From: Lacrimispora sphenoides
GTDB taxonomy: Bacteria > Bacillota > Clostridia > Lachnospirales > Lachnospiraceae
Direction: 5' to 3'
DNA: 64,000 bases
NCBI RefSeq assembly: GCF_900105215.1
Contig: NZ_FOIP01000001.1
Span: forward strand, 620,001 to 684,000
The position numbers and the translations under genes are program-made. Positions 12,769-44,419 of this stretch are shown piece by piece. The notes beneath the pieces are model-generated. The model saw only the letters and a program-made list of their open reading frames with translations. It did not search any database and was not told the DNA's origin. How positions within the stretch are numbered: position 1 is the stretch's first letter; the number at the start of each line of letters is the position of its first letter.

Positions 12769-14094
12769 CTATGGAATCAGCCGGTTAATATCTCTTGGAA
12801 ACAAGGTGGAATACCGCACATTCTCCTGTTCAAGCAGCTTGCTTGTAAAACGTTCCAGACCCAGGCCCAGTCCTCCATGTGGCGGCATCCCATATTTATG
12901 CATCATAAGATAACTTTCAAATAATTCAGTATTCATACCTCTGCGTTCCATTTTATCAATCTGTTCCTTATACCCATGAATTCTTTGACCGCCTGTTGTT
13001 ATTTCCAGTCCACGGAATAAAAGGTCAAAGCTTAAGGTTTCATCCTCATTCTCCATGCTATCCATAGCATAAAAGGGTCTCTTTTTGCTTGGATAATGGG
13101 TCACAAATACAAATTCACTTCCTGTTTTCTGCTTTATCAGCTCGCAAAGAAGTTTTTCTTCTTCCGGCTCAAAATCATCAAAATCTTTTATAGGTCTATG
13201 ATACTCCATTGAAATCAATTCTTTTGCTTCTTTAAATTTAATTGCCGGAATCTCTTTGATTACAGGCAGCTTCACTTTTAACAGCCTTATTTCATCTCCA
13301 TATTGTTCATTTAAATATTTCATTACATATTTTAGCATCATCGTTTCCATCTGCATAATGTCTTCAAAACTGCAAATGTACCCCATTTCAAAATCTACGC
13401 TTGTATATTCATTCAAATGCCTGGAGGTATCATGTTTTTCCGCCCGGAAAACCGGAGCAATTTCATACACTCTTTCAAAAACGCCTACCATCATCTGCTT
13501 GTAAAATTGCGGGCTTTGAGCTAAATATGCCTCTCTGCCGAAATAGTCTAAGCGGAAAATATTTGCTCCGCCTTCAGCGCCTGCATAAACGATTTTAGGC
13601 GTACGGATTTCTGTAAATCTTCCCCTTTTTAAGAACTCACGTATTCCATAAGTGATCCCTTCCTGCAGCTTAAAAATAGCACGTTCTTTTTCGTTACGAA
13701 GCGTAACCGGCCTGAAATTAAGCAGAGTTTCCATAGAAGTATCTACACATTTATTATTTATTACAACTGGGCTTTGCTCTTCCGGCTTTGATAATATCTC
13801 TATCTCAATTATCTGAAGGTCATAGCCTGTTCTGGATCTTTCTTCCCCTTTGACACAAGCAGTCACGATTACGCTGCTCTCTTCCTTTATTTCATCAAGA
13901 GAAAACCGGGAAATTTCCTTAGAATAAATGCACTGAACCACGTTACGTTTCGTTCTTAATAGTACAAAAGCAAAATCGCTCATTTTCCTGATTTTGTAGA
14001 TGCTTCCATGAATTCTTATAGTTTCACCAATGTGGTTTATTAATTCCTCCGCCTCAACGGTTATCTCTTTGATTTCTCCAATGATACTCTTCAT
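12769..14094 (-). CDS. aspS: aspartate--tRNA(Asn) ligase, archaeal/AspS2-type class II synthetase
   Basis: 441 residues with an N-terminal OB-fold anticodon-binding domain (about 1-105) and a class II catalytic core. Motif 2 (FRAEKHDTSRHLNEYTSVDFEM) and motif 3 (GGLGLGLERFT) are clear. At this length, and without the bacterial insertion domain, it is the AspS2/AsnS-like type. In bacteria with GatCAB this enzyme is usually non-discriminating and charges tRNA(Asn) as well as tRNA(Asp) with aspartate. AsnS is the main alternative name, but the Asp-rich leader peptide upstream favours AspRS. GGAGGAAAGACA precedes the ATG. Confidence 0.85.
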   Translation of the reverse strand: MKSIIGEIKEITVEAEELINHIGETIRIHGSIYKIRKMSDFAFVLLRTKRNVVQCIYSKEISRFSLDEIKEESSVIVTACVKGEERSRTGYDLQIIEIEILSKPEEQSPVVINNKCVDTSMETLLNFRPVTLRNEKERAIFKLQEGITYGIREFLKRGRFTEIRTPKIVYAGAEGGANIFRLDYFGREAYLAQSPQFYKQMMVGVFERVYEIAPVFRAEKHDTSRHLNEYTSVDFEMGYICSFEDIMQMETMMLKYVMKYLNEQYGDEIRLLKVKLPVIKEIPAIKFKEAKELISMEYHRPIKDFDDFEPEEEKLLCELIKQKTGSEFVFVTHYPSKKRPFYAMDSMENEDETLSFDLLFRGLEITTGGQRIHGYKEQIDKMERRGMNTELFESYLMMHKYGMPPHGGLGLGLERFTSKLLEQENVRYSTLFPRDINRLIP

Positions 14095-14205
14095 TGTCTT
14101 TCCTCCTGGATTATGATTGTTTTATTTTTATTGCTATAAATATATCCATGAGGACATCATCAATATGTCCCATACGATCACAACCTTTCTCTTTCTCGTA
14201 TGGGT

Positions 14206-14322
14206 AAAAAAATAGAACCACACGAGCAAATTAAATTTACCAATGTGGTCCTAAATATTCTATCCACATAGGCGCAACGCTTTTAGCGCTTGCACCTGTG
14301 GTTCGTCACAGATACAAGCGCT
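14206..14322 (-). promoter_or_regulatory. leader-peptide attenuator of aspS: four competing stems ending in a terminator
   Basis: Read on the minus strand after the leader peptide stop. Segment 1 (14322-14307) pairs with segment 2 (14300-14285) as a 16-bp stem around a 6-nt loop. Segment 2 can instead pair with segment 3 (14281-14271; one bulge). Segment 3 (CCTATGTGG, 14272-14264) can pair with segment 4 (CCACATTGG, 14248-14240). Segment 4 (GGACCACA, 14251-14244) can pair with TGTGGTTC (14222-14215) followed by TATTTTTTT, a rho-independent terminator. Stems 1:2 and 3:4 therefore exclude terminator formation, while 2:3 permits it. No T-box consensus (AGGGTGGnACCGCG) is present. Confidence 0.72.
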
Positions 14323-14323
14323 G

Positions 14324-14371
14324 TCAATCGTCGTCCCAATTCAACTTTTTAAGTTGTTGATGTTGATTCAT
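14324..14371 (-). CDS. aspS leader peptide MNQHQQLKKLNWDDD
   Basis: A 15-codon open reading frame with a good ribosome binding site (GGAGG, eight bases before the ATG). It ends in three consecutive aspartate codons (GAC GAC GAT) directly before TGA, and the first attenuator stem begins two bases after the stop. Three Asp codons immediately ahead of an aspartyl-tRNA synthetase gene are the hallmark of ribosome-mediated attenuation. Asn and Trp codons precede them. A small hairpin (CAACTT-AAA-AAGTTG) lies within the coding part and could act as a pause site. Being only 48 bases long, it is easily missed. Confidence 0.72.
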   Translation of the reverse strand: MNQHQQLKKLNWDDD

Positions 14372-14400
14372 AATAGCTGCCTCCATTTATAATTTGATTC

Positions 14401-14429
14401 AGGTTATCACAAAGAGCGTATATTGTCAA
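14401..14429 (-). promoter_or_regulatory. promoter of the aspS leader
   Basis: TTGACA (14429-14424), 17-bp spacer, extended -10 TGaTAACCT (hexamer 14406-14401). Transcription would start near 14394, about 23 bases before the leader peptide. The -35 box contains the TGA stop codon of the upstream C39-like gene. Confidence 0.7.
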
Positions 14430-15046
14430 ATGAAATATTCAATGGTATCTGCCGGTTTCTTCTGTGTCACTCTGTTAAATATGATGACAGCCTCCCTTGT
14501 TTCCTTGGGTCCAAGGGCATAAGTACCCTTTCCCGTGTCATTAAACATTTCCCATGGCACACACCGGTTCCTATGGTAAGGCATATCTGTAATCAGCTCC
14601 AATCCCTTTTGCTTAAAAGGTTTCTTTCTGAAATAAGGATCAAATAAATAAACATTCTCCTCATCGGCCCCTGTTACCAGTACATAGTGCCAGCAGCCTA
14701 ACATCACCCGTGCCACCACAACTCCGTCCTGTTGCAGGCCATACATGATCTTGCTGTTTTCTCCTATAAACACTTCGTCCCCAGTCAGATATTCACTTTG
14801 AACCGGGAATTTTTTCATCTTTCCGAATTGGTTGATCCAGTTGCTAAAAAACATCATAGCCATACGTGAGGTTCCATTTTTCCCGAACTCCCCCTTGGCA
14901 TTATAGGAATCAAGACAAAACAGCATAATATGTTTGATGATATCCGGCGGAATCTGATCCCGGGTGAAGAGATAACTCATTGCATTCAGTAATGTAGTCG
15001 GGCCGCAGTCGTATTCCGTGACCTGATAATTTAGCGGATTTTTCAT
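14426..15046 (-). CDS. C39-like cysteine peptidase family protein
   Basis: About 206 residues of the papain-like/C39 fold. The catalytic Cys is in YDCGPTTLLNAM near the N-terminus, and the His and Asp are in GCWHYVLVTGADEENVYLFDPYF near the middle. There is no signal peptide and no transporter domain, so it is probably a free-standing cytoplasmic peptidase or cross-linker; the substrate is unknown. The start is placed at 15046 (MKNPLNY), where AAGGAAG lies about ten bases upstream; the upstream ATG at 15076 has no ribosome binding site. Its stop codon is embedded in the -35 box of the aspS promoter. Confidence 0.7.
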   Translation of the reverse strand: MKNPLNYQVTEYDCGPTTLLNAMSYLFTRDQIPPDIIKHIMLFCLDSYNAKGEFGKNGTSRMAMMFFSNWINQFGKMKKFPVQSEYLTGDEVFIGENSKIMYGLQQDGVVVARVMLGCWHYVLVTGADEENVYLFDPYFRKKPFKQKGLELITDMPYHRNRCVPWEMFNDTGKGTYALGPKETREAVIIFNRVTQKKPADTIEYFI

Positions 15047-15157
15047 ATTGGATTCACTTCCTTCAAAGATTTTCATACACGGTTACCAGTCATATGTTAA
15101 AAATACCGGTATACCTATAATGGCTTTTTACCACCACAGGAATCAAACGATATTCTT

Positions 15158-44195: not shown

Positions 44196-44419
44196 AAAAA
44201 AAGTCGCCTCCTTTTCGCACTTAGTAGAAGTACGACAAGCGGTGACTGTACACGTTCCCGTGTGTGTCATTAAAGACCCCACACTGACTTCCCATTTAAA
44301 TAAACAGGATTTTAAATTGTACAGTGACTTGTCGCCAGTTTCCTAACTTGACATTCGCTCCACGGAAAACCTGCTTATATAAGCAGCAACCTCACGCTTC
44401 ACAGCTATCATGCCACAGC
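44196..44419 (-). ncRNA. structured leader of the S10 operon
   Basis: A roughly 224-nt 5' leader. A long-range two-part stem CGACAAG/CTTGTCG (44344-44338 with 44239-44233) and CTGTAC/GTACAG (44334-44329 with 44251-44246) encloses an ACACG/CGTGT tetraloop-type hairpin (44250-44263). This is a likely autoregulatory site, for example for L4, as in other S10 operons; the ligand is inferred. Confidence 0.5.

Follow-up and report, generated by a model that had tools for sequence, protein, structure and literature searches.

Which signal controls the archaeal-type aspartyl-tRNA synthetase (AspRS) gene in the 64,000-nucleotide stretch of Lacrimispora sphenoides DNA analysed here (the window), and do the tandem Asp codons of a short reading frame ahead of this gene take part in it? 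Our analysis argues for a leader (14429-14206, minus strand) that is very probably a ribosome-mediated transcription attenuator, which would sense charged tRNA-Asp and control an auxiliary AspRS.

The coordinates of all features are given in Table 1. ORF1, equipped with a predicted ribosome-binding site, is placed between promoter and terminator, as expected of an attenuator. The original prediction, made from the letters of the window, had described the promoter as a consensus one. TTGACA and an extended -10 (TAACCT at 14406-14401, preceded by TG) are present, and TGnTAnnnT stands at the -10 in those alignment rows that were inspected, but the term is slightly overstated, as a consensus promoter scan returned no score for the leader promoter. 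Also, the 16-bp stem said to begin two bases after the stop is separated from it by one base instead. On the minus strand the leader folds with -69.9 kcal/mol (z = -7.2), and none of 200 shuffles was equally stable; the plus-strand fold of about the same stretch reached a z of only -2.0 and was rejected as the feature. Upstream of the leader an ORF at 14426-15076 (minus strand) shows weak C39-like peptidase similarity below the Pfam cut-offs, and an ordinary S10-Clostridia ribosomal protein leader (RF03136, 94.9 bits) is found at 44329-44410 of the window, minus strand.

Table 1. Positions of leader, second reading frame and synthetase gene in the window.
Feature	Position	Strand	Basis
Promoter: TTGACA 14429-14424, 17-nt spacer, extended -10 TGATAACCT	14401..14429	-	TTGACA invariant in 17 aligned loci
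ORF1 Shine-Dalgarno GGAGG	14380..14384	-	AGG core kept in alignment
Leader ORF1 MNQHQQLKKLNWDDD-stop, 15 codons, ATG 14371, TGA 14326-14324	14324..14371	-	sequence and alignment
Control codons GAC GAC GAT (three tandem Asp)	14327..14335	-	sequence and alignment
Segment 1 (AGCGCTTGTATCTGTG), partner segment 2	14307..14322	-	96.2% of cells paired
Segment 2, partner 1 or 3	14285..14300	-	96.3% of cells paired with segment 3
Segment 3, partner 2 or 4	14264..14280	-	alignment pairing
Segment 4 (terminator 5' arm), partner 3 (antiterminator, 92.8% of cells) or 5 (90.0%)	14240..14253	-	
Segment 5 and U-run: intrinsic terminator 3' arm 14223-14213, U7 14212-14206	14206..14223	-	sequence and pairing
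ORF2 extended Shine-Dalgarno (AAAGGTTGTGATC)	14176..14188	-	sequence
ORF2 MGHIDDVLMDIFIAIKIKQS-stop; Asp5 14161-14159, Asp6 14158-14156, Asp10 14146-14144	14111..14173	-	sequence and relatives
Hairpin right behind ORF2 start codon (GGACAT / ATGTCC)	14152..14170	-	alignment pairing
Possible anti-Shine-Dalgarno GTCCTCATGGAT, partner ATCCAGGAGGA at 14111-14101	14144..14155	-	MFE; inference
Archaeal-type aspartyl-tRNA synthetase, extra copy	12769..14094	-	protein family scores and paralogue count

Conservation of the leader and the synthetase behind it

An AspRS protein search of 41 genomes returned 30 loci, 18 of them at 69% identity or more (L001-L018, with L001 the window itself). L007 was left out, as only 77 bases of its contig lie upstream of the gene. 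Promoter, ORF1, segments and terminator are present in all 17 readable loci (the window and 16 relatives), which had been retrieved by protein alone. Their control codons read DDD in 16 and DED in one (L018, from another family), while ORF1 outside the control codons is variable. These codons, together with the conserved pairings described below, uphold the earlier claim of an Asp leader-peptide attenuator before aspS. On both strands of the 12 loci at 51-59% identity (L019-L030) the leader pattern is absent, and a T-box motif stands in L019-L026.

A pattern that joined the Asp codons to the first part of segment 1, with as many as 2 mismatches allowed, matched in 13 of 200 Lachnospiraceae genomes, and a reversed control pattern in none. 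Twelve of the 13 matches have an AspRS downstream, namely the window (L039 in this search) and 11 others at 63-74% identity over the aligned part; L033, with no AspRS downstream, was dropped as a chance match. In a named collection 83 stretches matched the Asp pattern, three of them from Paenibacillaceae; 80 were read (L045-L124) and L125-L127 were left out. Most matches are named either as Lachnospiraceae or by a genus that we assign to this family, including Lacrimispora, Kineothrix, Anaerocolumna, Acetatifactor, Fusicatenibacter and Mobilitalea. The 80 loci comprise 77 distinct leaders, 61 of them new relative to L001-L043. Since the pattern fixed the Asp codons, these loci were not counted for codon conservation. 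The gene downstream is an archaeal-type AspRS at 65 loci, a bacterial-type AspRS at six (L046, L061, L071, L091, L108, L110) and unassigned at nine, each with less than 900 bases of downstream sequence. NCBIfam agrees with the bacterial type for the three scanned of the six (L046, L091, L108). The bacterial-type aspS of L110 carries an internal deletion.

The AspRS of the window scores 556 bits against NF003483 (aspartate--tRNA(Asn) ligase, non-discriminating; cut-off 353) and 368.5 bits against TIGR00458 (cut-off 368.4). The leader-controlled enzyme is an extra copy in all nine genomes checked (seven with Asp leaders, two with Asn-like ones), each of which also encodes a full-length bacterial AspRS (789-825 bits). 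In three of them (G757, G684, G566) the copy under the leader is likewise a bacterial AspRS, the second of its genome and diverged (561-589 bits).

Many Firmicutes synthetases are under T-box control, and a divergent T-box, i.e. a tRNA-binding riboswitch in place of a translated leader, therefore deserves consideration, all the more as the genome of the window contains one before its other archaeal-type AspRS (L205, G000:C1:2585600-2588400; E 5e-12, 64.7 bits, under the gathering score of 93, with the GGGTGGTACCGCGG motif present). Searched with the same tool and mode, 14050-14500 gave no T-box match even at E 10; at the leader neither a covariance match to RF00230 nor the GGGTGGTACCGCG motif was found, and a GGGTGGNCCGCG-type motif is absent in L001-L018. 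The E-value mode recovered the T-box in all six loci given (L020, L022, L024, L026, L027, L029). With a good ORF, a Shine-Dalgarno sequence and codons matched to the gene also standing against it, a T-box at the leader is extremely improbable. The original prediction had likewise seen no T-box motif, and had named a T-box match, or a lack of conserved Asp codons and pairing in relatives, as grounds for giving up the attenuator; neither came out against it.

T-box control of an archaeal-type AspRS has a precedent in C. acetobutylicum. The T-box of L205 resembles the leader in that it serves a related enzyme in the same genome and senses charged tRNA; unlike the leader, it makes direct contact with tRNA and works without a leader ORF. 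The genome of the window thus appears to have two means of sensing how well tRNA is charged with Asp or Asn, a T-box and a leader peptide.

Alternative pairings and the position of the ribosome

Pairings 1:2, 2:3, 3:4 and 4:5 are all present and form mutually exclusive hairpins, one of which (4:5) is the intrinsic terminator. In an alignment of 32 leaders, window included, 96.2% of the cells are paired for 1:2, 96.3% for 2:3, 92.8% for 3:4 and 90.0% for 4:5, compared with 15-59% in a control in which the partner was shifted by 1-3 columns. Segment 3 of L054 and L104 is out of register; both were retained in every count. The four alternative pairings that had been predicted for the window are hence all real features of the alignment (90-96% of cells). 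Compensatory changes, which the prediction had asked for, occur on both sides of pairs in all four helices (four pairs in 1:2, four in 2:3, one in 3:4 and eleven in 4:5). The single pair of 3:4 is no better than shuffles by pair count, which 462 of 500 reach; counted by cells, 3:4 shows 10 with two-sided changes against a shuffle mean of 4.5, which none of 500 shuffles reach. The best single sign of the alternative pairings is a three-way co-change, in which column 88 of segment 3 varies both with column 58 of segment 2 (UA 16, CG 13) and with column 146 of segment 4 (AU 16, GC 10).

The effect of the ribosome was modelled by folding the 32 nascent leaders, each ending before the 3' arm of the terminator, with the stretch under the ribosome kept single-stranded; the footprint was assumed to span 12 bases and to begin with the A-site codon. 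When the ribosome occupies the first Asp codon, 3:4 is more probable than 2:3 in 30 of 32 leaders (medians 0.75 and 0.00), and falls below a probability of 0.1 in three (L034, L062, L064). At the second Asp codon 3:4 prevails in 24 of 32 and at the third in no more than 13. Once the stop codon is reached, 2:3 prevails in 30 of 32 (median 0.81) and 3:4 in the other two; folding without a ribosome favours 3:4 in 23 of 32. From these counts the geometry gives read-through upon a stall at the first codons and termination at the stop. This agrees with the ribosome logic proposed originally (Asp stall for read-through, stop codon for termination), to 30 of 32 leaders each way, with the third Asp codon following it in just those 13.

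With the ORF, its codons, the conserved alternative pairings and the terminator directly visible in the DNA, stalling and read-through at the leader would proceed as follows. If Asp-tRNA is scarce, the ribosome would wait at the Asp codons and leave segment 1 free, so that 1:2 forms, 3:4 pairs, the terminator 4:5 is blocked and the spare AspRS is transcribed. If Asp-tRNA is ample, the ribosome would reach the stop and cover segment 1, whereupon 2:3 would pair, segment 4 would be free for segment 5 and transcription would end. The controlled copy would presumably stand in for the housekeeping AspRS whenever that enzyme fails, e.g. under an AspRS inhibitor.

One fold with other control codons

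A covariance model of the Asp leaders, run on 116 genomes of the order, matched in eight, of which four are real: the window, the genome of L018 and two leaders with His codons (MFTTLIAIQQLHHRHKQRL in L138 and MLFTMHHHHTFSDCNL in L139), both before HisRS. The matches L140-L143 are weak and were read as chance. A second model, built without the codon columns from 29 Asp and 2 His leaders, had matches in 28 of the 391 class genomes and 28 of the 299 family genomes searched; in a sample of 398 genomes of the phylum only the window matched (E 1e-4, strict filters). Loci on the sense strand were read, and one class hit without a locus (G564:C85) was left out.

In the class 30 loci comprise 2 Asp leaders (window, L160), 3 Asn-like, 17 His and 8 chance matches, all weak (L165, L167-L173). 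Three His leaders precede HisRS (L152, L154, L158), 11 precede HisZ or a HisZ-like protein (those of L162, L164, L166 and L175 being below the family cut-off) and one precedes hisD (L163); behind L150 and L151 lies a 67-residue ORF, which in L150 matches a synthetase anticodon-binding domain (PF03129). In the family the 28 genomes hold 16 Asp leaders, 2 Arg, 1 His (L194, before hisG), 1 Asn and 8 weak matches read as chance (L195-L202). Both Arg leaders, MNTFYVNSLRRRERRRKLL (L192) and MNMYLTNSLRRRQRRHKFL (L193), stand before ArgRS. The 16 Asp loci are made up of ten that coincide by coordinates with the earlier pattern-search loci, the window, L177, which is the same leader as the seed L099 and was excluded as an independent case, and four new ones (L178, L186, L188, L189); an earlier pattern match, L036, was missed by this model in the family search.

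Codon identity follows the downstream gene in most leaders read. The codon-blind model yielded five new AspRS leaders (L160, L178, L186, L188, L189), all with DDD; among the eight further AspRS loci found in this way these are the five with Asp control codons. The exceptions, L147-L149, belong to one genus outside the order and carry the codons NNGYN, without Asp, before an AspRS that was typed as bacterial through NCBIfam in L147 and by reading in L148 and L149, and that is an extra copy in the two genomes checked. In L187 an Asn leader of this fold (LNGNNN) precedes an MTA/SAH nucleosidase (also L208), a combination for which we have no explanation. Codon and gene thus disagree in four leaders.

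These four leaders speak for a general sensor of translation speed (ermC-like), in which any slow ribosome on ORF1 would cause read-through regardless of the amino acid, as they have few or non-matching codons. We consider such a sensor improbable, because control codons match the gene in the majority of leaders and the rest of ORF1 is variable. Less probable still is autoregulation by AspRS, with the Asp codons being incidental. Some synthetases do bind their own leader RNA, and the strongly conserved structure, in which AGCGCTTGTA of segment 1 is nearly invariant in the alignment (though partly contained in the search patterns), would suit such binding. However, Asp leaders occur ahead of both the archaeal and the bacterial type of AspRS, which are only distantly related, and leaders of this fold with His or Arg codons occur ahead of HisRS, HisZ, HisG, HisD or ArgRS.

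Duplicate synthetases recur behind the other versions as well. Both genomes with an Arg leader have two ArgRS, compared with one in that of the window (G000), and HisRS is doubled in three of five leader genomes, the two single cases being 77% and 94% complete. In Rfam (release 15, gathering mode) no leader-peptide family was found in the window, in 14 loci sharing the fold or in 17 loci (six with Asp leaders); these negatives are weak, because known T-boxes are also missed in gathering mode.

The second reading frame and related systems

On the 3' side of the terminator follows a second ORF with Asp codons (ORF2; motif M-x-H-x-D-[DY]-x-x-x-D). The criteria were a start codon preceded by a stretch that agrees with AAGGAGGTGATC at 8 or more of 12 positions and directly followed by a hairpin with a 7-base loop and no fewer than 5 of its 6 pairs, the Asp codons being left free. 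This test was passed at 84 of 109 loci (89 distinct leaders), against a background of 191 of 61,251 start codons in all loci collected, leaders included. By the same test ORF2 was not found in the six bacterial-AspRS loci nor in some others (L034, L038, L040, L043, L064 and more); L147-L149 largely keep a similar hairpin, and their ORF2 start codon reads ATT. Of 49 distinct ORF2 sequences, 48 have Asp at codon 5 and 48 at codon 10, with codons 4, 8 and 9 varying widely; the exception (L072) is a miscall of the finder, its true ORF2 being MWQKDDARMD.

Another set of 45 distinct sequences was chosen with Asn, Asp or similar allowed at codon 5, codon 10 free and pairing not required. Here both Asp codons are used (GAT/GAC 18/27 at codon 5 and 40/5 at codon 10), and the two variable pairs of the hairpin are kept in 39 (GC 28, AU 6, CG 2, UG 2, GU 1) and 40 (AU 28, GC 11, GU 1) of the 45. 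In the set preselected for at least 5 of 6 pairs, 95.1% of the hairpin cells are paired and four of the six pairs show two-sided changes. ORF2 is thus a strongly conserved element. Its use as a module elsewhere was rejected, since seven of eight matches in 200 Lachnospiraceae genomes lie at aspS leaders and the eighth (L135) lies within an unrelated coding sequence.

In MFE structures of 55 distinct loci, the end of ORF2 pairs with the Shine-Dalgarno sequence of the synthetase by at least 4 pairs in 16 and at least 8 in 11, nine of the latter being among L001-L017 (the genus of the window). Sequestration as a universal mechanism was accordingly rejected as not general (11 of 55). Where this pairing exists, ORF2 would be a second, translational attenuator of ermC type; outside those loci an effect on mRNA stability or on reinitiation is as likely. 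Probably ORF2 provides one more control by Asp, at the level of translation or stability, a role far less certain than that of the attenuator itself. A wider scheme is tentative, and in our opinion rather doubtful: a portable Clostridia module, re-coded for Asp, Asn, His or Arg, that guards duplicate synthetases and turns on the spare upon failure of the housekeeping enzyme, with the Asp version working in two stages by means of an Asp-dependent ORF2 checkpoint, on translation or stability, after read-through.

In the classical trp, his, leu and pheST attenuators of Proteobacteria, the choice between antiterminator and terminator depends on whether the ribosome stalls at control codons. The present leader would share this dependence. 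In contrast to them it has five segments, by virtue of which a free segment 1 leads to read-through, a second Asp ORF downstream and no match to an Rfam leader family. In Streptomyces an auxiliary, indolmycin-resistant TrpRS is under attenuation by a leader peptide; there, too, a leader peptide controls a duplicate synthetase, the amino acid and the phylum being different.

Ribosome-mediated control had been called unusual for Firmicutes, which is fair, but it is not unprecedented. His leader peptides were predicted in 2010 before hisZ and a hisS paralogue in bacilli (PMC2965389), and in 2022 before his operons of the B. cereus group, Peptostreptococcaceae/Lutispora and Erysipelotrichales (PMC9413887). 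Going by the parts of these descriptions available to us, the likeness comprises ribosome-mediated attenuation, tandem control codons and, in one case, a duplicated synthetase; the differences are His in place of Asp and a second ORF not being described in those parts. A predicted 5'-UTR element of Shewanella aspS, named 'tRNA synthetase leader', is likewise an aspS leader with a predicted terminator; it is from Proteobacteria, and the portion of the description seen has no Asp leader peptide (PMC2659441). PMC4833913 cites a survey of 2010 by Lopatovskaya and others. In our literature search on leader peptides and synthetase attenuation, from which subscription papers mostly fell outside, no Asp (aspS) or Arg (argS) leader peptide was among the matches listed.

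By those features of the class that can be tested by sequence, the leader falls under ribosome-mediated attenuation, a type of control already known. Its novelty lies in the specificity for Asp, in a single fold being re-coded for more than one amino acid, in the link to duplicate synthetases and in the second ORF with Asp codons. If this reading is right, Asp, Arg and probably Asn would be added to the specificities of leader-peptide control in Firmicutes, and one fold would have been re-coded between genes. The leader would also mark which synthetase duplicates are emergency copies, and would offer a direct route to the natural inhibitors of AspRS, HisRS and ArgRS that gut bacteria meet.
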